A stretch of DNA of 64,000 nt, taken from contig CAMATH010000018.1 in assembly GCA_945860955.1 (NCBI GenBank), positions 1 through 64,000 on the forward strand. Direction: 5' to 3'. Numbering within the stretch: position 1 is the stretch's first letter; each line of letters opens with the position of its first letter. Below the pieces are notes generated by a model. The model was given only the letters and a program-made list of their open reading frames with translations, searched no databases and was not told the DNA's origin. The position numbers were made by a program, and so were the translations under genes. This document shows, piece after piece, positions 899 to 14,925 of the stretch. Source of the DNA: Planctomicrobium piriforme (GTDB lineage: Bacteria > Planctomycetota > Planctomycetia > Planctomycetales > Planctomycetaceae).

Positions 899-2464
899 AT
901 GAAGACTATGGACCAGACCGTTTCCGCCTGGATGGGAACGGGCGAGATTCCCTCGGAGTCGCGCCTCACGGCGGACATCGAGACCAATGTCTGCATCGTG
1001 GGGGCGGGAATCGCCGGGCTGTCGACAGCCTATCTGCTGCTTCAGGAGGGGCGCTCCGTGGTGGTTCTGGATGACGGTCCGATTGGCGGCGGACAGACGG
1101 AACGCACGACCGCGCACCTCTCCAATGCGATTGACGCCCGCTATGTGCAGATTGAAAACTGGCACGGGGTTGAGGGCGCACGGCTCGCCGCGGAAAGCCA
1201 TTCTGCGGCCATCGACCGCATCGAATCGATCGTGGCTCGCGAAAGCATTGACTGCGACTTCGAACGGCTGGCTGGTTATCTCTTCAATCCTCCGGGAGAA
1301 GCGCCGGATCTTTTGGAGCGTGAACTGCAAGCGGCTCGGCGTGCGGGATTGAACGACGTGGAAGTTGTTTTACGCTCGCCTTTGGGGGCATTCGATACCG
1401 GGCCCAGTCTCAGGTTTCCGCAGCAGGGGCAACTGCACCCGCTGAAATACATGGCGGGTCTGGTGAATGCGATTCGAAACCAGGGCGGAAAAATCTTCAC
1501 ACAGACTCACGTCGACAAAATTCAGCACGGACCCCCGGCGCGAGTTCACACCCGCGAAGGGGCAACGGTTTCAGCCGGTTCGGTCGTCGTCGCGACGAAT
1601 TCACCGTTCAATGATTTGGTCACGATCCACACCAAACAAGCCGCGTATTTGACGTATGCGCTCGGTTTCGCCGTCCCCCGGGGCGCGATCCACAAGGCGC
1701 TCTATTGGGATACTCAGACTCCTTACCATTACGTTCGGTTGATGGCGATGCCCAAGGTCGATTCCAACGGAAACAGCCTAGGAAATCCGCAGTCGGAAGA
1801 GCTGTTGATCGTGGGGGGCGAGGACCACAAGACGGGGCAGTCGAGCGATGCCTCCGCGCGATACCCCCGACTCGAAGAATGGACTCGCGCTCGATTTCCA
1901 GAAGTCACCGCAATTCGCTGCCACTGGTCGGGACAAGTATTGGAGACGATTGACGGCCTGGCGTTCATTGGAAGAAACCCCTTGGATGGTCCGAATGTCT
2001 ACATCGCGACCGGTGACTCGGGTCAGGGGATGACGCATGGAACGATCGCCGGGATTCTCTTGACCGACTTGATCGTCGGTCGGAAGAATTCCTGGGCCGC
2101 GTTGTACGATCCGGAACGAAAGTCGCTGCGCGCCGCAGGACGATTCCTTCGGGAAAGCGTCAATGTCGCCCTACAATACAGCGACTGGATCACACCGGGA
2201 AACGTCGCATCGATCGACGACATCGCTCCCGGCGCGGGTGCCGTCGTTCGAAGGGGACTGACGAAAATGGCGGCGTGCCGGGACGACCAGGGAATGGTCT
2301 ACAAATTCTCGGCGATCTGCCCGCATCTGGGCTGCGTCGTGCAGTGGAATCCGGGCGAAAACAGTTGGGATTGTCCGTGCCATGGATCGCGATTCGACAA
2401 ACAGGGACGTTTGCTGTGCGGGCCGGCCAACACCGATCTGACTCCGATTTTCGATGTAAGTTGA
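899..2464 (+). CDS. FAD-dependent oxidoreductase with C-terminal Rieske domain
   Basis: This 521-residue protein belongs to the DAO-type flavoprotein family fused to a Rieske [2Fe-2S] domain (YhfW-like architecture). Near residue 30 it has the dinucleotide-binding motif IVGAGIAGLSTAYLL, followed by the acidic end of the second strand (VVLDDG). A second FAD-contact region, ATGDSGQGMTHG, lies near residue 370. The C-terminal 80 residues carry both Rieske cluster boxes, CPHLGC and CPCHGSRF, so all four cluster ligands are present. The family is predicted to oxidise an amine or similar donor and pass electrons to the Fe-S centre; the substrate is unknown. ATG 899 is used, with a second in-frame ATG three codons on. 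No signal peptide is visible, so it is probably cytoplasmic. It is monocistronic, with a hairpin just downstream. Confidence 0.88.
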   Translation: MKTMDQTVSAWMGTGEIPSESRLTADIETNVCIVGAGIAGLSTAYLLLQEGRSVVVLDDGPIGGGQTERTTAHLSNAIDARYVQIENWHGVEGARLAAESHSAAIDRIESIVARESIDCDFERLAGYLFNPPGEAPDLLERELQAARRAGLNDVEVVLRSPLGAFDTGPSLRFPQQGQLHPLKYMAGLVNAIRNQGGKIFTQTHVDKIQHGPPARVHTREGATVSAGSVVVATNSPFNDLVTIHTKQAAYLTYALGFAVPRGAIHKALYWDTQTPYHYVRLMAMPKVDSNGNSLGNPQSEELLIVGGEDHKTGQSSDASARYPRLEEWTRARFPEVTAIRCHWSGQVLETIDGLAFIGRNPLDGPNVYIATGDSGQGMTHGTIAGILLTDLIVGRKNSWAALYDPERKSLRAAGRFLRESVNVALQYSDWITPGNVASIDDIAPGAGAVVRRGLTKMAACRDDQGMVYKFSAICPHLGCVVQWNPGENSWDCPCHGSRFDKQGRLLCGPANTDLTPIFDVS

Positions 2465-3169: not shown

Positions 3170-5143
3170 CTACATCTTCTCAATCGTCTCGATTCCCAGC
3201 AGCGACAACCCCTGTCCGATCGTCCGCGCGGTGAGGTCGGCGAGCAGTAGTCGACTCGCGCGTGACTCGTCATTGTCGGCCTTGAGAACCGGGCAATTCT
3301 CGAAAAACGTGCTGAAGCAGTTCGCCGTCTCGAACAGATAGTTCGTCAGCAGATTCGGACGGTAATCCACCACCACCCCGTCGAGAGTCTCATGAAAACG
3401 GACCAGTTGCAGCGCCAACGCGCGCTCGGCGGGATGCTCCAGTCGAATGGATTGTGAACTCTGCCTCAGCGCGACGCGGTCGATATCCCCCCGCCGAAAG
3501 ATTCCGCAAACGCGGGCATACGCATACTGCATGTAAGTCGCGGTATCCCCCGACAACGCGAGCATTTTGTCCCAACTGAAGACGTAGTCGGTCTCGCGGT
3601 TTTGCGACAGGTCGGCGTACTTGATCGCGCCGATTCCGACCGATTCGGAAATCTCGGTTCGGGTCGCTTCGTCGAGTTCCGCTCCCTGCGGTTTCTGGCT
3701 CTCGTTGTCATCGACGATCTTGCGAGCCCGCGTCACCGCTTCGTCGATCAGCGATTCCAGCCCGACGGTGTCTCCCGAGCGGGTTTTGAACGGCCGACGG
3801 TCGTCCCCCAGAATCGTTCCGAAGCTGACGTGGCGCAGGTCGACCTTGTCGTAACCCCAGCGACGGGCGGTCTCAAACAGAAGTTTGAAGTGGTCCCCCT
3901 GACGGGCGTCGACAACGTACAATACGACATCCGCCTTCAGCCGATCGACCCGGTCACGAATCGTCGCGAGGTCGGAGGTGGCGTACGTATATGCACCGTC
4001 CCGCTTGCGGATTATGAATGGAGCGTCGACTCCAGGAATGAACACGCAGATCGCGCCGTCGCTCTCGACGGCCAATCCCGCGGCTTTCAAGTCTTCGACG
4101 ACGCTGGCGAGCATCGGCTGGTAGTGGCTCTCTCCCAATGCCAGATCGAACCGCACCCCGAGTCGGTCGTACATCCGCCCCAGCGCCGCCAGGCACTCGG
4201 GCATGAACTGGTTCCAGAGCGCGATGTTCGTGGGGTCGCTCGCATGCATCCGCGACGTCTCCAGTCGCGCTTCCTCGATGATCCCGGGATGTTGTCGGGC
4301 CAAAGCGAGCAGTGTCGCGTCTCCCTCGACAGCGGCGATTTTCTTCGCCGCCGACGACACTTTGTCACTCACGCCGGCCTGTTCACTTGCGAGCTGCTTC
4401 AGGGACTTCTTCCGCGCCTCCTGCTCCTTCTTGTCGGTTGGCATGGGGGACTGTTGCGCCGTCCGGTTGCGGGATTCCACATCCGCGAGTTTCTCACGCA
4501 GGCCGGGCAGCTCGGCGGCCGCCTCGTGGTACCCTTCGAGTTGACTCACCAGCCGATACAACCGCGCGAGTTCCCCCACTGGGTTGGCGTCGTAGGCCGC
4601 CGAGTCGAGAAAGTGCTTGTACCCATAAATGATCATCCCGAATTGCGTTCCCCAGTCGCCGATGTGGTTGTCGCTGATCACATCGTGCCCGAGGAACTTC
4701 AAAACCCGGTACAGCGCGTCACCAATCACGCTGCTGCGCAGGTGCCCCACATGCATCGGCTTGGCGACATTGGGGGACGAAAAGTCGACGATGTACTTGC
4801 GCGGTGCCGGGACCGGGTTCACCCCACACCGCGCATCATGAGCCTGCGCCGTGACCTGGGTCGTGATCCAATCGGTTTTGAGTCGCAGGTTGATGAAGCC
4901 GGCACCCGCGACTTCCGGCGGTTCGCACAGGTCGGCGAGGGCGACTTTGTCGGCGATTTCCTTTGCGAGGGCCAACGGATTGACTCCGCGCTGCTTCGCG
5001 AGGGACATCGCGAAATTCGCTTGAAAATCGCCGTGTTTCGCGTCTTGCGCAGGACGGATGAGCGTTGTCAGTGTCTCGGGGGCGTCGGAGTAGCCCACGA
5101 GGACGGTGTGAAAACGGTCCCTGATTTCCCGCAGAATGTTCAT
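3170..5143 (-). CDS. argS: Arginyl-tRNA synthetase
   Basis: This cytoplasmic class I aminoacyl-tRNA synthetase charges tRNA-Arg with arginine. It has 657 residues. The N-terminal Arg-S domain (about 1-90) is followed by SPNVAKPMHVGHLRSS, with the HIGH signature at 131-134. The active-site loop late in the catalytic domain reads FKTRSGDTV in the KMSKS position, the relaxed form usual in ArgS. The C-terminal DALR anticodon-binding domain ends in LSLLGIETIEKM. The protein is about 80 residues longer than E. coli ArgS. Much of the excess is a Lys/Glu/Gln-rich helical insert around residues 205-265. ATG 5143 gives a standard N-terminus. rsfS lies upstream on the same strand, 123 bases away. Confidence 0.97.
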   Translation of the reverse strand: MNILREIRDRFHTVLVGYSDAPETLTTLIRPAQDAKHGDFQANFAMSLAKQRGVNPLALAKEIADKVALADLCEPPEVAGAGFINLRLKTDWITTQVTAQAHDARCGVNPVPAPRKYIVDFSSPNVAKPMHVGHLRSSVIGDALYRVLKFLGHDVISDNHIGDWGTQFGMIIYGYKHFLDSAAYDANPVGELARLYRLVSQLEGYHEAAAELPGLREKLADVESRNRTAQQSPMPTDKKEQEARKKSLKQLASEQAGVSDKVSSAAKKIAAVEGDATLLALARQHPGIIEEARLETSRMHASDPTNIALWNQFMPECLAALGRMYDRLGVRFDLALGESHYQPMLASVVEDLKAAGLAVESDGAICVFIPGVDAPFIIRKRDGAYTYATSDLATIRDRVDRLKADVVLYVVDARQGDHFKLLFETARRWGYDKVDLRHVSFGTILGDDRRPFKTRSGDTVGLESLIDEAVTRARKIVDDNESQKPQGAELDEATRTEISESVGIGAIKYADLSQNRETDYVFSWDKMLALSGDTATYMQYAYARVCGIFRRGDIDRVALRQSSQSIRLEHPAERALALQLVRFHETLDGVVVDYRPNLLTNYLFETANCFSTFFENCPVLKADNDESRASRLLLADLTARTIGQGLSLLGIETIEKM

Positions 5144-5266: not shown

Positions 5267-5695
5267 TCAAACACGCTCCGCATCGGATTCGACCGGAACC
5301 GCCCGGACCGAACCGGCGGGTTGCCAATCGACGCGGGGAGCCTCGGCCCACAGATTTTCGAGATCGTACAAGGAGCGGGCTTCCGGACTGAAAACGTGCA
5401 ACACCACGTCGCCAAAGTCCATCAGCAGCCACTGCGTGCTGTCTTCCCCTTCGACTCCCAGCCGACGTGAACCTTCGGCCTTGAGCTTCGCGTTGATTTC
5501 CGCCGCCATGGACTTCATCTGCCGCGCGCTGGTCGCCGTCGTGATCACGAAGTAATCGACGATCGGAGTGCTGGCGGTCATATCGAGAACCACGGTGTCT
5601 TTGCCGCGCATCGCCTCGGCGGTCTGCGCGGCAAGCCGCGCCAGCGGAAGGCCATCGGCCTGACGCGACGCGAGGGTGGCGGGTTCTTTCTGCAA
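5267..5695 (-). CDS. rsfS: Ribosome silencing factor RsfS (Iojap/YbeB family)
   Basis: RsfS binds L14 on the large ribosomal subunit and blocks subunit joining in starvation. Family motifs are clear: KDTVVLDMTASTPIVDYFVI, then the TATSARQMKSMA helix, and the end segment WLLMDFGDVVLHVFSPEAR followed by LYDLENLW. The frame is open upstream to 5869, but that extension is Arg/Ser-rich and overlaps a palindromic repeat region. I chose TTG at 5695 (142 residues, normal family length), with the purine-rich AGGGAGAG upstream; the start is uncertain and TTG 5746 is another option. A roughly 25-residue tail follows the conserved domain. argS follows on the same strand. Confidence 0.9.
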   Translation of the reverse strand: MQKEPATLASRQADGLPLARLAAQTAEAMRGKDTVVLDMTASTPIVDYFVITTATSARQMKSMAAEINAKLKAEGSRRLGVEGEDSTQWLLMDFGDVVLHVFSPEARSLYDLENLWAEAPRVDWQPAGSVRAVPVESDAERV

Positions 5696-5815
5696 TGTAG
5701 CGATCGTGAGACTCTCCCTGGAATTGTGCAGTTTAGGTGTTAACAAATAGTACGACGATTGGGAAGGGACCAGGGTTCGCGCACAATCCAGGCGAGCGGG
5801 GCTGTCGGTTTTGTA

Positions 5816-5869
5816 GCGACGACGCTCCGCGGCGTCGCTCCGGTTGTGGTTCCCGCGAAGCGGAACCAC
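5816..5869. repeat. Two adjacent palindromes (REP-like)
   Basis: The first palindrome, CGACGC-6-GCGTCG (5820-5837), sits inside a 23-base sequence (5816-5838) found identically at 51871-51893. The second, GTGGTTCC-8-GGAACCAC (5846-5869), directly follows it. Together they resemble dispersed repetitive extragenic palindromes. They lie in the gap between the ketosynthase-like gene and rsfS and could also act as a bidirectional hairpin after the former. Confidence 0.6.
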
Positions 5870-5948: not shown

Positions 5949-7253
5949 CTAAACCGCGCGAAAAATCGCTGCCGCGCTTTGCCCCAGCGCCGTCCGGTTG
6001 ACCGACAGCGCCGTCAGATTCCTCAGCCGGGCCGGCTCATTCGCCACCACATTCAGTCGACACAGCGGGTCGGGAGTCGTGTAGTTGAGCGTCGCCGGCA
6101 CCAGTCCCTCCCGCAGTGCCAACAGACTTCCAGCCAGTTCCACCGCACCCGAGCCGGCGTCAAACGAGCCAAAATAGCTCTTCATGCCGGTCACCGGAAT
6201 CCGCCCCGCCAGATCCCCAAACACCCGATGATACGCCCGCGCTTCGATCCAGTCGTCCCGCAATGTCCCTTTCCCGTCGGCGTTGATGTGCCCGAGTTCT
6301 CCCGGATCCACATTCGCCTTTCGTAACGCCGCTTCGATCGCCCGCACCAGCCCCGTCCCCTGCCGGGCGTTGTCGATGCCCGAACCGTCGCAACCCCCTC
6401 CCACACCCAGCACCTCGGCGTAGATCTCGGCCCCGCGCCGCCTTGCGCATTCGTATTCTTCCACCACAAATGCCGCCGCCCCCTCCCCCAGAATGCAGCC
6501 ATCGCGGTACATGTCGAACGGACCGTGGAAATCCCGCGGATCGTCGTGGCGCGACAGGTCCGGCCCCAGTGTCAATCGGGCGACGTCGTGCGGATTGAGT
6601 TCCGAACCACACGCACCGACGATCATCGCGTCGGCGACTCCCCGCGTGATCGCGCTGACCGCCTCCCCCAACGCCAACAGCGCCGACGCCTCGCGACTGG
6701 TGATTGTATTGTTCGGTCCCCGCGCGTCGTGTTCGATGGCGATGTGGCAGGCGGGCATGTTGGGCAACTGCGGCAGCAACCACAACGGGTAGATGTGGGC
6801 CATCGCCTCTTCGCCGAACCGTTCGAATTCGAACGAGGTCTCCCGGGCGCACGATTCCGCCGCCCGCACCAGCTCCTGGGGTGTCGGCGAAATCCGGCCC
6901 GCGCCAAAGACCACGCCCAGCCGATCGGGGTCGATTTCTCCCAGCCCCAGTCGCGCGTCATCCATCGCCAAAGCGGCGGCCCCGACCCCCAGTTCTATGT
7001 CCCGCGACATCACCTTCTGGAGTTTTTTGTTTCGCAAGAACTGGGCGGGTTCGAACCCCTCGATCTCCGCAGCCAGCTTGCAGGGGAGCCGCCCCGCGGG
7101 AATTGACTTGAGCGGCCCAATGCCCGATCGCCCCTCGACCAAGTTCGTCCAGAGCGCACTCCGCCCGATGCCGGCCGCCGAGACGACGCCGACGCCGGTG
7201 ATCACCACCCGGGATGATCGCGGCTTCAATGCTGACTGAACCAAGATGGGCAC
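5949..7253 (-). CDS. Ketosynthase-fold protein lacking the catalytic triad (chain-length-factor-like)
   Basis: This 434-residue protein has the thiolase fold of FabF-type beta-ketoacyl-ACP synthases. It opens with VVITGVGVVSAAGIG and keeps the GPN loop, a DGCILGEGAAAFVVEE strand and the final SGAVELAGSLLALREG helix. However, all three catalytic positions differ from FabF. The nucleophile position in GPNNTITSREAS is Glu188 instead of Cys, the first His of the NAHGT motif is Asp326 (NADGKGT), and the second His of KSMxGH is Ser363 (KSYFGS). It therefore cannot condense acyl chains in the usual way. A chain-length-factor, scaffolding or decarboxylating role is possible. The GTG start at 7253 is preceded by no strong Shine-Dalgarno. 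No acyl carrier protein or partner synthase lies nearby. It is probably cytoplasmic. Confidence 0.85.
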   Translation of the reverse strand: MPILVQSALKPRSSRVVITGVGVVSAAGIGRSALWTNLVEGRSGIGPLKSIPAGRLPCKLAAEIEGFEPAQFLRNKKLQKVMSRDIELGVGAAALAMDDARLGLGEIDPDRLGVVFGAGRISPTPQELVRAAESCARETSFEFERFGEEAMAHIYPLWLLPQLPNMPACHIAIEHDARGPNNTITSREASALLALGEAVSAITRGVADAMIVGACGSELNPHDVARLTLGPDLSRHDDPRDFHGPFDMYRDGCILGEGAAAFVVEEYECARRRGAEIYAEVLGVGGGCDGSGIDNARQGTGLVRAIEAALRKANVDPGELGHINADGKGTLRDDWIEARAYHRVFGDLAGRIPVTGMKSYFGSFDAGSGAVELAGSLLALREGLVPATLNYTTPDPLCRLNVVANEPARLRNLTALSVNRTALGQSAAAIFRAV

Positions 7254-9083: not shown

Positions 9084-9155
9084 AGTCGGCGGAAGGCTGA
9101 TCGAACGAATTTCCATGGCCCGGTTCGACGCTTGAATACGAAAGAGAGTGACCCT

Positions 9156-11360
9156 GTGAGTCGCTGGCGCGTCTGTGAAATCCTGTGTGGAATTCTGCTG
9201 GTCGCCTGGGCGGGATCCCCCGCGTTCGCCGCCGGTCCCAAGGTGGCGATTGTCGTCGACGCCAAGGCACCAACTCTCGAACGGACGGCGGGAACGGAAC
9301 TCGCCGGCCTACTCGGCAAGCTGTATGACGCCGACGCGAAAGTCGTCGCGACAATTCCCGCCGACGAAACCCCCACGATTGTCATCGGATCCCCCGCCAC
9401 AAACCCCGCGCTCAAACCGCTCGCCGCCGGCTGGCCGAAACTGAGCGACCAGGGGCATCTGGTCCGCAGTTCGAAACTGGGGAATCGCCCGGTGCTGTTG
9501 GTCGGCGGGGGGAGCCCGGTCGCCACGCTGTGGGCCGCGTACGAGTTGGGACACCAGTTTGGCGTCCGCTACATGCTGTATGGCGACGTCATTCCCGAAG
9601 AACCGGCCCCGTTCCGTCTCGACGGTTTCGACATCCTCCTTGAACCGAATTTGAAGCTGCGCACGTGGCGCACGGTGAACGATTTCCCCATCGGCCCCGA
9701 ATCCTGGGGACTGGAAGAGGAACAGAAGTTCGTCCGCCAGCTTGCCAAGCTGAAGTACAACCGTGTGCTGATTTCGGTCTACCCCTGGCAGCCGTTCGTG
9801 CATTTCGAGTTCGAAGGGGTGGCCAAGCAGTCGTCCCTGTTGTGGTTTGGCTATCAGTACCGCGTCGACGGAGACGCCGCAGGGCGCGGTGTGTTCAAAG
9901 GAGCCAAGCTGTTCGAAAACCCGGACTTCGCCGGCAAGACAGCGTACGCCGACCGGATCGCTGCGGGCAAACGGCTGGTCGGCGGAATCATCGACGCGGC
10001 TCACGACTTGGGAATGACTGCCGGCATCTCCATTTCGCCGCTCGAATTTCCCAAGGAGTTTGCCGCCGTTCTTCCCGGTGCGCAATCGGTCCATCAGCTC
10101 GAAACCCTCACCATTGGTCCCGGCCCGATGCAGAAGCCGGGGGACAAGACGCTGCACGCTTTGGCCCAGGCACAAATCCGTGGCTATCTGGACGCCTATC
10201 CGACACTGGACGTGTTGTATCTCACGCTCCCCGAGTTTCCCGGCTGGGCCGAACACCATGCCGAGGCGTGGAAACGGCTGGCCGGCCGATCAAAACTGGG
10301 GAGCGACATCACACTTGAAAAACTGACCGAAGCGGCTCGCAATCGCAAGACGATCGCGTCGGGGGAGCGGGGGGTCGCCGCCTTTCGCGGCAATGTGACC
10401 GCACTCGATTTTCTCCAGACACTGCTGGCCGATCCCGAGACGTTGAAGCGGCCGGGCGGGGGACAAGTGGAAACGGTACTGATCGACGCCGACCCGGCTC
10501 TGTTTCCCGTTCTCGATCGAGTCGCTCCCGCAGGGGCGCACACGTTGAATTTCATCGACTACACCGCGCTGCGGAGTGTCGCGAGCAGGGAGCTGCTGGC
10601 GGATATCCCCACCCGAAAGATTCCCAGCAGCCTGATCCTGACGCTCGCCGACGACAATGTGGGAATGCTGCCGCAGTCGTCGGTGACGGCGCTGCACGAA
10701 CTGACCGCCGACCTGCGAAAACATGGTTTCGAAGGGTTTTCAACGCGGTACTGGATGCCGGGCGATCTCGATTTGAGCGCATACTATCTGAGCCGGTCGA
10801 GCTTTGACTCGGGGGCGACGCCGACACAGTCGCTGCACGATCTGGTCGCGCCGTTGTGCGGCGAAGGAGTGGTCGATCGGGTGCAGTTGGTCTTTGACCA
10901 CATCGAACAGGCGACCGCGCTGATCGAAAAGAACGACATCGGCTTTTCGTTCCCCATTCCGGGAGTGGTGCTGAAACACTACGAAAGCGGGACGGAGGTT
11001 CCCGCCTGGTGGGGCGAAGTGAGCGCGGCGTATCTGAACGCGATGAACGAGGCGTATCGCGCGAACCAGCGCTCCCGGCTCGAAGGACGCAGTTTCACGC
11101 TGTATCTGGCGCGACGCCTGGATTTCGCGTTCAATTACATGACGGCGATGGAAGCGGTCAAAAAGGCGGGGATCGCCAAACGGGCGGGAGACAAAGAGAC
11201 GCACGCGACCCAATTGCAGGCCGCCGTCGACGCCCTACACGACGCTCTCAACGCGCAGGCGGCCGTCGCCCGCAGCAACAGCGACCGGGGAGTGATCGCG
11301 GTCCTCAACGAGTACGGTTATCGACCGTTGAAGAAGGAATTGGAATCGCTGGAGGAATAG
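9156..11360 (+). CDS. Secreted glycoside-hydrolase-like protein (alpha-glucuronidase-type N-terminus)
   Basis: I use GTG 9156 (734 residues), preceded by AAAGAGAG, because it opens a clean signal peptide (ILCGILLVAWAGSPAFA). The longer TTG frame at 9132 adds only a polar stub. After cleavage, residues of about 25-150 (VAIVVDAKAPTLERTAGTEL..., IVIGSPATNP, LLVGGGSPVATLWAAYELG) match the alpha/beta domain that precedes the catalytic barrel in alpha-glucuronidase, GH20 and GH84-like enzymes. A barrel-like region follows (LRTWRTVNDFP, KYNRVLISVYPWQPF). The exact family and the catalytic acids cannot be fixed by eye. The likely role is processing of an exogenous polysaccharide in the periplasm. Its stop lies one base from that of the convergent MscS-type gene. 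Confidence 0.7.
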   Translation: MSRWRVCEILCGILLVAWAGSPAFAAGPKVAIVVDAKAPTLERTAGTELAGLLGKLYDADAKVVATIPADETPTIVIGSPATNPALKPLAAGWPKLSDQGHLVRSSKLGNRPVLLVGGGSPVATLWAAYELGHQFGVRYMLYGDVIPEEPAPFRLDGFDILLEPNLKLRTWRTVNDFPIGPESWGLEEEQKFVRQLAKLKYNRVLISVYPWQPFVHFEFEGVAKQSSLLWFGYQYRVDGDAAGRGVFKGAKLFENPDFAGKTAYADRIAAGKRLVGGIIDAAHDLGMTAGISISPLEFPKEFAAVLPGAQSVHQLETLTIGPGPMQKPGDKTLHALAQAQIRGYLDAYPTLDVLYLTLPEFPGWAEHHAEAWKRLAGRSKLGSDITLEKLTEAARNRKTIASGERGVAAFRGNVTALDFLQTLLADPETLKRPGGGQVETVLIDADPALFPVLDRVAPAGAHTLNFIDYTALRSVASRELLADIPTRKIPSSLILTLADDNVGMLPQSSVTALHELTADLRKHGFEGFSTRYWMPGDLDLSAYYLSRSSFDSGATPTQSLHDLVAPLCGEGVVDRVQLVFDHIEQATALIEKNDIGFSFPIPGVVLKHYESGTEVPAWWGEVSAAYLNAMNEAYRANQRSRLEGRSFTLYLARRLDFAFNYMTAMEAVKKAGIAKRAGDKETHATQLQAAVDALHDALNAQAAVARSNSDRGVIAVLNEYGYRPLKKELESLEE

Positions 11361-11361
11361 C

Positions 11362-14300
11362 TCATCCCGCCTTCAACGGCACGTGGGGCCGGGGCGGTGA
11401 TTCCGGGGCTCGTTCGGCTCCCGCACGCGCTGAATCGGCCGCCGCTGGTTGTTCGTTGCTCCCTGTCGTCGGGACCACGGGAGGCTGGACGGGGATGGCG
11501 TTGACGGGAGTCGCCGGAGGCTTGGCGGGAGTGGTGGGCGGAACCGTGGTCACGATACCGGCTTCCTGAAACTCCCGTTTGATCAGCGTCAACAATTCGT
11601 GCCGAACCTGGGAGGTGACGTCGCAACTCGCGACACACACACGCAGGGTGAAGCTGAGGGCGTTGTCGGTGAATTCTTCGAACTGCGCCGCCGGCGGGGG
11701 CTGTTTCAACACCAGCCGATGTTTCATCGCCACCCCCAGCAGCAGTCCCCGAGCGAAATCGGGGTCGGTCCCCATCGCCACGCGGACTTTCAACGTCAGC
11801 CGGGTGAGCGTGTTGGTGAGCGTCCAATTGATCACCCGGCCGGTGATGAGTTCCTTATTGGGAACGATCAACTCACGCAGTTCGCCGTCGGTGATGGTGG
11901 TCGCCCGCATCCGGATTCGGGTGACCGTTCCGGTGACGTCACCAATCGAAACGATGTCGCCAATCCGTACGGGGCGTTCGAACAGCAGAATCAGCCCCGA
12001 GACAAAGTTGGCAAAGATCTCCTGCAGTCCAAACCCCAGTCCGACGGTCATCGCCGCCACCAGCCAGTTTAATTCCGCCCAGCCAATTCCCAACTGACTG
12101 AACGCGGCCAGCACCCCCAGCACAATCACGCTATACCGGCAGACCGCTGCGACCGCGTAGCGTCCCCCCGCGTCAAGCTGGGTCCGCGACAGGAAGCCGA
12201 CGTCCAGTAATTCCGGCAACGTCCGTTCGCAAAACCAGGTGAAGATCCCAATCACGATGGCAACCGCCACGCCAGCGACTGTAATCAACCCGGCTGTTCC
12301 CTCGTCGTCGGTCGAATCGAGAATCCGAAACGGGTGCGGCCAGAGTTCAATCGTCTGAAAGATACGCAAAGCCGGCAGTACCTGTCCCCAAATCCACCAG
12401 CACCCCATCACAAACAGGGCGACGGTGGCCATTCGCAGCAAGTGCCTAAGTTGGGCACCGCCACTTTCAATTGTCGGCAACCCCCCATTGGACTCTTCGT
12501 CGGCCGCGATGGCACCAGCCAAAGTCGTACCAAACCGCGGCAGAACCCAGCCAACCGTCAATCGTTCGACAATGCACAGCGCGCCCCACAAGCCCAGCAT
12601 CCCCAACAACCGGACTTCGAGCTGCACCGCGGTGTAATGATAACCCCAGAGGGAAAGCCCGGCGAAAACCAGGGGAATCGCGACAGAAACGGCTGGCCAG
12701 AGACTCCCGACCGAGCGCCGCCATTGCGATTGACTGAGGGAGACATTATCGCTGGCCGCCTGGGGTTGTTCTGGTGCCAGTCGACGCAGAGCCCACCACA
12801 AGAGAATCTGCAGACAGACGAATGCGAACCGCCCGAGCGCGCTGCGGACGAGATCCCCCGCGAAGTGGATTCCCCACATGGTGAGGAACAACAACGGCAC
12901 GCCCCACCAGCTCAGGATGCGGGCGACCCGTCGCCAGGCCGAAACCCGTTCCACCTGCCAGGCCAGCAGGGTCGGATTCAGCGAATTCAGCCGAGTCCCC
13001 ATCCGTACGATTCGCAACGGGAACAACAACAGCGCCGCCGACTGCATTCCCCGCCCCGCGGCGGCCGTTAGTTCGTTCAGATTGATTGCCACGACCCGAC
13101 TTCCGAGAAACCACAAGACCAACGGAAACGTGATCGCTCCCGTCCAGACCACGGTGATCGCCAGTCGATACCGATCGCCATCGGTCGCGCTGCGGCCCGT
13201 TTCCGCCCGCAGTTGATGTTGCCTGCGCCGGCCCAGTAGAAACGCTCCCCCGGCCGTGACCAGCGCTAACAGATACACTCCGGGATTCGTCTGGACATCC
13301 TGGGCGATTCCAACCCCAACGCCACTCCAGAACGAAGGACGCAACAAATCCGAGACGGCCTGAAACAGCCGGGGACCGTCCGCCGACTGCGGCGGGACCG
13401 TGCTGCGAATCCACAACACATGCTCGTCGCAAAAGCGGGCGTATTCCTGCGTCTGGCGAAAAAGTTGCCGTTCCGCGGTTTCGAGTTCCATCAGCGATTC
13501 GAGGTACCGGCCCGTGTCGCCAATCAAACCGTCGAGGTAGCCCCGCCGGGAATTCAGCAGCGATTGAAGGCTGTCGGTTTCCGTCTTGGTAAGCGTCACC
13601 CCGTTTTTTGCCAGCTCTTTTTTCTCGCGCGTAACTGCGGTCGCCAGGTCCGCGAGTCGGCTGCGGGCCTCTTCGTGGTCGGCCAGTTGAAGGCTCAGTT
13701 GAGCCGTTTCATGTTCCCGTTCGCGCGACCGCTCTTTGAGTCCCGCCGCACTGGGAAGACTCTCCCTGCGTCGACGCAACACGACCGCGACGGTTTCGGT
13801 GAAACCCGCCTTTTTTGCCCGGCTGGAGATCTTCTCGAATTCTTCGAGCAGTTCGGACGATTGCGCGTCGACGGCGTCGGACTGCTTTCTCGCAAGTTCA
13901 ATCTTGCCGGCCAGCCCCTTGCGTTCCCGCGTGTATTCGGCGTTCTTCTCGGCGAACCGGCGAACCGCGTCGGGAACCGCATCGACCTGCCGCGCCGCCT
14001 CATTCGCTTCGGTGTCGACCTCGCTCTGTCGGCGGGAGTTGACCCCTTCCTCCCAGGCGGCGACGAGTGACTTGGCGTACTCCAGTTCCACGGCAGCCAG
14101 GTCGCGGCGCGCGACCATCAGTTCCGCCGTCTCTTTGTAGGTGATCTGTTCCTGCTGCAGCAGTTCCAGTTCGGCGGACGTCGCCCGGCGGCGGGCGGAG
14201 AGCAGCATCTGGTCGGCTTCCTGCTGCGCTTCGGAAAGATCTTCGCTGGAACCCCGTTTGAGCTGCTGGTCGATCTCGTCGCGCTCTTCCTCGAGTCGGG

Positions 14301-14925
14301 CGTACTGGTTGGGAATCTCCTGGCGCCGGGAAGACCGGCGCGTCATTTCCGCCTCCGCCTCTTCGTGTTTCTGCCGCCAATCTTCGAGCGTGGCCTCGGC
14401 GTGACTCAACCCCTCTTCCAATTGCGTCAGCGGGGCTTGCGGATCGACCAGTGTCGAGGGGGTCGGCCGGGACGCGACAAGCTGCGCCTGAGTCGCTGCG
14501 AGTTCTTCGGGTTCCAGCTCGGCGAGTTTGCGGAACTTCTGTTGCCGATGTGAGAACTCGCGTGCCTCGGCGAGAGCGTCGAGCGTCCGTTTGTAGGCGT
14601 CGATGAGGGTGGTTTGTTCCTCGGGCTCCAGGTCTGAGTTGCCTTGCGCGCGTTGGATCCGGGCTTTGACAACCGCCTCGGAAACCGTCGACAGATCCTC
14701 CGCGTCCTCCGCGTGATCCGCGTCATCCGGGACAGTTGTGGGAGGTTTCGGCGCGGGTTGTAGCTCGGCTTCCGCCACTGCGGGCTGTGTCGGCTTGGGC
14801 GGTGTCTTTTGTCCCCCGTTCGCGGGACGCTGGGCGACAGCGAGCGCAGGCAGAGTCAGACAAACCAAACAGACGACGATCCACCGCCGAACTCTGGGGA
14901 ATCCCCACATCGCGCAACCATCCAT
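11362..14925 (-). CDS. Large MscS-family mechanosensitive channel (MscK/MscM-like)
   Basis: This 1187-residue inner-membrane channel is predicted to release solutes on hypo-osmotic shock. ATG 14925 has a strong GGAGGTG upstream, and the protein starts with a signal peptide (WIVVCLVCLTLPALAVAQ). A long periplasmic coiled-coil region (about 70-520, rich in Glu, Gln, Arg and Leu) is followed by about ten membrane segments. The MscS core near residues 920-1120 has the pore helix (LVAAMTVGLGFGLQEIFANF) and the beta-domain sequence (RPVRIGDIVSIGDVTGTVTRI, LIVPNKELITGRVINW). The last 50 residues are Pro/Ala-rich and disordered. The size and layout match MscK-type channels rather than small MscS. It appears monocistronic. 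Confidence 0.92.
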   Translation of the reverse strand: MDGCAMWGFPRVRRWIVVCLVCLTLPALAVAQRPANGGQKTPPKPTQPAVAEAELQPAPKPPTTVPDDADHAEDAEDLSTVSEAVVKARIQRAQGNSDLEPEEQTTLIDAYKRTLDALAEAREFSHRQQKFRKLAELEPEELAATQAQLVASRPTPSTLVDPQAPLTQLEEGLSHAEATLEDWRQKHEEAEAEMTRRSSRRQEIPNQYARLEEERDEIDQQLKRGSSEDLSEAQQEADQMLLSARRRATSAELELLQQEQITYKETAELMVARRDLAAVELEYAKSLVAAWEEGVNSRRQSEVDTEANEAARQVDAVPDAVRRFAEKNAEYTRERKGLAGKIELARKQSDAVDAQSSELLEEFEKISSRAKKAGFTETVAVVLRRRRESLPSAAGLKERSREREHETAQLSLQLADHEEARSRLADLATAVTREKKELAKNGVTLTKTETDSLQSLLNSRRGYLDGLIGDTGRYLESLMELETAERQLFRQTQEYARFCDEHVLWIRSTVPPQSADGPRLFQAVSDLLRPSFWSGVGVGIAQDVQTNPGVYLLALVTAGGAFLLGRRRQHQLRAETGRSATDGDRYRLAITVVWTGAITFPLVLWFLGSRVVAINLNELTAAAGRGMQSAALLLFPLRIVRMGTRLNSLNPTLLAWQVERVSAWRRVARILSWWGVPLLFLTMWGIHFAGDLVRSALGRFAFVCLQILLWWALRRLAPEQPQAASDNVSLSQSQWRRSVGSLWPAVSVAIPLVFAGLSLWGYHYTAVQLEVRLLGMLGLWGALCIVERLTVGWVLPRFGTTLAGAIAADEESNGGLPTIESGGAQLRHLLRMATVALFVMGCWWIWGQVLPALRIFQTIELWPHPFRILDSTDDEGTAGLITVAGVAVAIVIGIFTWFCERTLPELLDVGFLSRTQLDAGGRYAVAAVCRYSVIVLGVLAAFSQLGIGWAELNWLVAAMTVGLGFGLQEIFANFVSGLILLFERPVRIGDIVSIGDVTGTVTRIRMRATTITDGELRELIVPNKELITGRVINWTLTNTLTRLTLKVRVAMGTDPDFARGLLLGVAMKHRLVLKQPPPAAQFEEFTDNALSFTLRVCVASCDVTSQVRHELLTLIKREFQEAGIVTTVPPTTPAKPPATPVNAIPVQPPVVPTTGSNEQPAAADSARAGAERAPESPPRPHVPLKAG

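Follow-up and report, generated by a model that had tools for sequence, protein, structure and literature searches.

A planctomycete FabF-like protein with an acidic residue at the nucleophile position, a candidate chain-length-factor-like subunit

In KSQ loading decarboxylase domains, the ketosynthase (KS) cysteine is replaced by Gln and both histidines are kept. Another replacement, that of FabF Cys163 by an acidic residue, has been known in kind since 2009 among planctomycete FabF paralogues: the section on these paralogues in Rattray et al. (PMC2649909) tabulates two R. baltica proteins, NP_866153 and NP_865682, with Glu or Asp at this position. According to that section, NP_866153 has the pattern Glu/His/Asn with the Lys retained, and both proteins cluster with unusual paralogues of Kuenenia, which are suggested to act on a different substrate and to have a different function; the same section proposes no partner or mechanism for the R. 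baltica proteins. Kuenenia also provides a paired arrangement, as kuste3605 and kuste3606, a FabF and a non-canonical FabF, are found in a cluster with ACP and FabZ (PMC4790861, Table 2; the available text of PMC2649909). The contacts between such enzymes and their carrier protein are described for FabF, in which Lys65, Arg68 and Lys69 bind AcpP, most contacts being made by the protomer opposite the cross-linked one, and K65E and K65A/K69A mutants show reduced cross-linking (available text of PMC7138838). In the ishigamide complex, the chain length factor (CLF) is contacted by ACP, mainly via helix II (available text of PMC8358021). No function assigned to the planctomycete acidic-site paralogues was found in the open-licence literature that we searched.

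The DNA analysed here, hereafter the window, is the whole stretch of 64,000 nucleotides and corresponds to bases 1-64000 of contig C18 in a planctomycete draft genome of 8.4 Mb (282 contigs, 98.9% complete). It encodes a FabF-like protein whose orthologues form our group A. We call acidic type the set of related proteins to which group A belongs, and X the intact Cys-His-His ketosynthase adjoining acidic-type genes. The features of the window gene are:

5949..7253, minus strand: open reading frame with a GTG start, FabF-like acidic-site (putatively non-catalytic) ketosynthase homologue of 434 aa, group A orthologue
7014..7025, minus strand: Lys77 to Lys80, basic ACP-docking residues predicted from FabF, at FabF Lys65 and Arg68
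6894..6896, minus strand: Arg120 codon, at FabF Ile108
6777..6782, minus strand: Trp158-Leu159, at FabF Phe133-Val134
6690..6692, minus strand: Glu188 codon, at the FabF nucleophile Cys163 (acidic in 35/35 other orthologue rows)
6276..6278, minus strand: Asp326 codon, at FabF His303 (His in 30/35 other orthologue rows)
6165..6167, minus strand: Ser363 codon, at FabF His340 (His in 19/35 other orthologue rows, Asn in 10)
5982..5993, minus strand: Thr421-Gly424, replacing the GFGG gating loop (FabF 399-402)

The window also encodes a FAD-dependent oxidoreductase (DAO) fused with a C-terminal Rieske domain (899-2464, plus strand), a 742-aa protein without any Pfam match at 1e-5 (9132-11360, plus strand) and a mechanosensitive channel of 1187 aa that has MscS porin and transmembrane domains (11362-14925, minus strand).

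FabF Cys163, His303 and His340 align on Glu188, Asp326 and Ser363 of the window protein, both in phmmer alignments (five best FabF sequences shown, including 4ls5, 1j3n, 5sxo and 3o04) and in a MAFFT alignment with E. coli FabF, in agreement with the replacements proposed by a first-pass annotation of the sequence. A Cys-His-His set at shifted positions, which would have overturned that proposal, is ruled out by the same alignments, and the GFGG gate is absent as well. The ketosynthase fold, which the first-pass annotation held to be retained, is indeed recovered. Both ketoacyl-synthase Pfam domains are detected (PF00109, 118.4 bits; PF02801, 77.9 bits), and an AlphaFold2 model obtained with 33 orthologues (mean pLDDT 86.8, with residues 1-11 and 145-163 below 50) matches FabF 5sxo with a Z of 59.6 and an rmsd of 2.6 over 399 residues (31% identity). 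The protein scores 292 bits against TIGR03150 fabF, under the curated cut-off of 493.75. It thus shares with FabF and other condensing ketosynthases the thiolase-type fold and both Pfam domains, and lacks their Cys-His-His triad.

Acidic-type relatives are found outside the family of the window genome (f1) and outside its class, in several families of the phylum. Besides the group A gene, the window genome carries a second paralogue (group B) on contig C201, the product of which is 44% identical to the window protein. The 50 acidic-type rows other than group A share 33-45% identity with the window protein. Their Cys site is Glu or Asp in 47 cases (Gly, Ser and Asn in the other three), their third site is Asn in 38, and Glu/His/Asn is the commonest pattern (27/50). 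A pattern scan of the phylum gave matches in 25 of 294 genomes, a lower bound as one exact DNA motif was required, and not all of these matches are confirmed acidic-type genes. A profile scan gave matches in 42 of the 294 genomes at E 1e-110, a figure that mixes acidic-type genes with Cys-bearing ketosynthases and thus provides no acidic-type count. Twenty further regions chosen from the profile-scan matches contained 14 acidic-type genes (one with Asn at the site), four tandems of two Cys-bearing ketosynthases, and X only in two cases.

Fourteen distinct acidic-type loci have an X ketosynthase within approximately 600 bp on the same strand (distances were taken from stop-to-stop frames, so that some pairs seem to overlap). 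Outside family f1, X adjoins the acidic-type gene in 13 of the 18 loci with about 4 kb or more of flank on each side (present in L049, L053, L067, L068, L150, L151, L152, L154-L158 and L161; absent from L052, L070, L153, L159 and L160); this count leaves aside L149, which lies at the edge of a contig, and loci whose flanks reach no more than 1.5 kb. The fourteenth pair, L162 (G316), belongs to family f1. In the two cassettes scanned for ACP and FabZ-like genes, the pair is embedded in a longer array. The order is FabZ-like, short-chain reductase (KR), ACP, FabZ-like, acidic type, X and GH3-type ligase in L152 (4236-10856), and FabZ-like, ACP, FabZ-like, acidic type, X, hydrolase and GH3 in L049. 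We found no product for such a cassette in the literature searched. The planctomycete lipid or polyketide setting that the first-pass annotation had suggested thus receives support, though indirectly, from a clade spread across families of the phylum, often with a true ketosynthase next door and with FabZ-like and ACP genes in two cassettes; as a type, the acidic-site paralogues had been on record since the 2009 table.

The two members of these pairs differ at the positions expected to contact ACP. Both FabF positions 65 and 68 are basic in all 85 acidic-type rows (35/35 in group A), in 11/11 FAS FabF and in 5/5 first genes of f20 tandems, and they are jointly basic in 0/17 X and 0/5 second genes of f20 tandems (acidic type versus X, Fisher p 1e-19, related rows being counted separately). 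As FabF and the first genes of the f20 tandems have the docking lysines too, their retention in the acidic type represents conservation rather than a new gain. In six plasmid KS/CLF-type pairs, position 65 is Arg in 6/6 CLF-type proteins and non-basic in 6/6 KS, while position 68 shows no split (basic in 3/6 CLF-type and 4/6 KS).

A second difference lies between FabF positions 133 and 138, where the acidic type has Trp133 (84/85), Leu, Met or Phe134 (85/85), Lys or Arg136 (78/85) and Leu138 (84/85), and X has Glu134 (17/17), Glu136 (14/17) and Glu138 (17/17). We take residues 133-134 of one FabF protomer to line the acyl pocket of the other protomer, as in the cerulenin complex. At the site of FabF Ile108, which we likewise assume to be part of the acyl pocket, all 35 group A rows have Arg or His and all 17 X rows have Glu; the Arg or His might close the window protein's own pocket. 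Judging from these residues, X seems to have lost the docking surface and to present charged residues toward its partner's pocket, and the acidic type seems to have lost catalysis, each having what the other lost. This complementarity, as indirect evidence, matches the way in which tasks are shared between KS and CLF in their heterodimers.

We consider it reasonably probable that the window protein is a non-catalytic CLF-like subunit that docks ACP and helps to line the pocket of a partner ketosynthase. Having retained the KS fold and the ACP-holding surface, it would join a Cys-His-His ketosynthase, the catalytic partner, in a mixed dimer, hold ACP for the partner's active site and line part of the partner's acyl pocket. 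Since the protomer opposite the cross-linked one makes most of the AcpP contacts, the non-catalytic subunit of such a mixed dimer should be the one to carry the docking patch (available text of PMC7138838). The acidic residue would probably serve as a structural anchor at the helix start, at the former nucleophile position, and not in catalysis, given that the histidines required for decarboxylation are not conserved. The comparison with chain length factors, one option among those listed in the first-pass annotation, is the better-supported reading.

One observation against this CLF-like reading is that group A genes stand alone. Twelve group A loci have 2.6 kb or more of sequence on each side, and none of them shows a ketosynthase within 1.5 kb; any one neighbouring gene is common to at most 4 of 14 loci, and the window gene lies away from a cassette, in a family in which the parts are mostly dispersed. 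We infer that group A still pairs although its gene stands alone. Candidate partners in the same genome are X, on contig C147, and FAS FabF, on contig C72; the choice is uncertain because, in the same family, group B adjoins FAS FabF and not X, as is seen at ten (L071, L072, L073, L118-L123 and L127) out of 21 f1 loci listed once repeats were merged. No second KS was detected near the f1 X loci L163 and L164 in flanks of 7 kb. Besides dispersed copies, some f1 genomes contain acidic-type/X-like pairs: that of G316 (L162) was read, and further ones in G015, G018, G023, G026, G032, G344 and G369 are deduced from neighbouring match positions.

In a first search, 33 of the 37 genomes of family f1, the window's own being counted, had a distinct group A orthologue. 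In a wider draw of 81 family genomes, group A was present at 612 bits or more in 68, with an intermediate match in G354 (546 bits) and 12 others without; among these 13 genomes without a clear group A gene, seven are listed at 90% completeness or more. One core copy of X was detected at 692 bits or more in 76 of the 81 genomes, that is in 63/68 genomes with group A (the exceptions being G002, G005, G011, G344 and G359) and in 13/13 genomes without it. As all 13 of the latter have X, X does not need group A. One X ketosynthase (G379:C245:6258-7544) contains one in-frame TAG, in a draft genome in which an assembly error is possible.

A standalone gene with a retained docking patch would also suit a sensor or regulator of acyl-ACP or ACP, using the KS fold for binding only and perhaps linked to translation, as rsfS (5267-5869) and argS (3170-5143) lie downstream of the window gene on the same strand. 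However, among the 14 loci compared, these two genes adjoin only the window gene and its closest relative (L039), and the next closest (L040) shares only the genes on the opposite side. As this neighbourhood is not conserved, we rejected a translation link through rsfS and argS, and we regard a sensor or regulator as unlikely.

At the Cys site, all of the 35 other group A rows have an acidic residue, Asp in 19 cases and Glu in 16. His predominates at the first His site (30 rows, against three with Asp and two with Gln); at the second His site, which is the third catalytic position, it is kept in 19 rows, the others having Asn (10), Thr (4), Ser (1) or Gln (1). Asp-His-His occurs in nine rows, Glu-His-His in seven and Asp-His-Asn in six, and no other pattern is as frequent. 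Among these orthologues, the window protein and L039 alone have Glu-Asp-Ser, and both His sites are altered in only two of the 35 rows, L039 and L040 (Glu-Asp-Thr). Thus, in these rows, only the acidic residue replacing Cys characterises the family; the three catalytic residues are lost together in the window protein and its two nearest relatives alone. The first-pass annotation had argued from this triple loss to a structural or new function; a structural, non-condensing role is supported, though indirectly, and the triple loss itself proves not to be a family trait.

A homodimeric enzyme with new chemistry could explain why the acidic residue is invariant. By analogy with KSQ, the carboxylate together with His, Lys358 and Glu372 would decarboxylate malonyl-ACP, or hydrolyse or transfer acyl-ACP, and the retention of FabF catalytic-frame residues (Lys358 in 32/35 group A rows, Glu372 in 33/35) and of both histidines in 16/35 rows is consistent with such a role. 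However, decarboxylation by FabF needs both histidines (available text of PMC2649909), at least one of which is missing in 19/35 rows, the window protein having neither. Only 6 of the 50 other acidic-type rows have both, the third site being Asn in 38 of the 50, and the GFGG gate is lost. With histidines drifting in this way among rows, a conserved decarboxylase is disfavoured, and we find new chemistry in general quite unlikely.

The CLF-like reading is also favoured by the selection acting on the gene. When genome contigs were scanned with the window protein alone, two loci matched, L039 (99% identical) and L040 (79% identical), and the dN/dS of the window gene is 0.027 versus the former and 0.156 versus the latter, as is the case for a gene under purifying selection. 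L039 comes from another assembly and carries the same three residues, which, together with the low dN/dS, makes both an error of sequencing and a gene in decay unlikely. We hold it highly improbable that the window protein is an inactive remnant about to be lost: both histidines are gone in its lineage and no clear group A gene was detected in 13/81 family genomes, but dN/dS is low in both comparisons and no in-frame stop was found in the 68 group A rows of the wider draw.

The acidic clade comprises 47 of the 92 rows of our tree, groups A and B included, and has a support of 100/99. Its sister group consists of five Cys-bearing ketosynthases, namely four first genes of f20 tandems and L069, from another family (joint branch 100/97). 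For the X clade, the sister group is formed by the second genes in the f20 tandems (98/93). The simplest reading of this topology is an ancestral tandem pair of ketosynthases, the first copy of which lost its Cys later. Tandems of family f20 were observed in five genomes (L145, L146, L147, L148 and L139); both of their ketosynthases keep Cys-His-His and only the first keeps the basic docking residues. On this pattern, the f20 tandems are likely to be an intermediate preceding catalytic loss in the first copy.

The phylogeny suggested as a check by the first-pass annotation places the acidic clade with Cys-bearing planctomycete ketosynthases and not with CLFs, although the AU test did not reject a topology uniting this clade with the six CLF-type rows (p 0.095), so that an origin independent of CLFs does not follow from it. 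A kinship with the Streptomyces CLF-type L112, supported by 95/96 in a first tree (one long row), was gone after adding a second row of that type, L165, and the f20 tandem KS rows.

A broader scenario can be drawn, possible but doubtful in our view. Planctomycetota would have evolved a CLF system of their own, perhaps independently of actinobacteria, in which one tandem duplicate lost catalysis and kept docking and the other did the reverse. In the window's family, X could then be served by two alternative dead subunits, group B and the dispersed group A, and the Arg or His of group A would face the invariant pocket Glu of X, so that swapping subunits would switch chain length or product. In the literature searched, we found neither X pairing across families of the phylum, nor complementary loss of docking and catalysis, nor ancestral-looking Cys tandems, nor a dispersed subunit A.

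If the CLF-like reading is right, the odd planctomycete FabF genes noticed in 2009 and left without a function would be the non-catalytic half of a split ketosynthase, which is a testable proposition. The split of labour, with one subunit binding ACP and the other condensing, would be readable in sequences and would predict which gene pairs to co-express, and the cassettes would be a pointer to reduced-polyketide or lipid synthesis in the phylum. The window genome also contains a KS domain (L001, G000 contig C86:28290-29006) inside a 3286-aa open frame, which might encode a type I PKS of large size or a protein resembling PUFA synthases.

Among known systems, FabF resembles the window protein in its fold and its docking lysines, and differs in having the Cys-His-His triad and the GFGG gate. 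KSQ domains likewise replace Cys by a larger polar side chain, but the window protein has Glu rather than Gln, and Asp and Ser where the decarboxylating histidines should be. The R. baltica proteins, compared by residue pattern only, are like the window protein planctomycete FabF paralogues with Glu or Asp at Cys163, and the Glu/His/Asn of NP_866153 is the commonest pattern of the other acidic-type rows. The window protein differs from NP_866153 in that the first His is also missing, and it is a family-specific copy. The Kuenenia pair resembles the acidic-type/X pairs, with an intact and a non-canonical FabF inside an ACP/FabZ cluster (PMC4790861, Table 2), but kuste3606 has Val, Asn and Glu at the three sites (available text of PMC2649909), and its cluster includes radical-SAM and desaturase genes that are absent among the L049 and L152 genes scanned.

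The CLFs of type II PKS (Streptomyces L110, L111 and L114; actinorhodin 1tqy_B) share with the window protein a KS fold, the lack of the catalytic Cys and of the GFGG gate, and a basic residue at FabF 65, and relatives of the window protein are, like them, encoded beside an intact KS. The three Streptomyces proteins even have Asp at the first His site, as the window protein does. In contrast, these CLFs replace Cys by Gln and not by an acidic residue, their third site is Arg, and FabF 68 is Pro where the acidic type is basic; the window gene, for its part, has no adjacent KS gene. As the window protein thus has no Gln at the Cys site and its gene no KS neighbour, and as common descent with CLFs stands at the AU value given above, we do not class it as a classical CLF. 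We conclude with moderate confidence that it is of the CLF kind by function, as a new variant.
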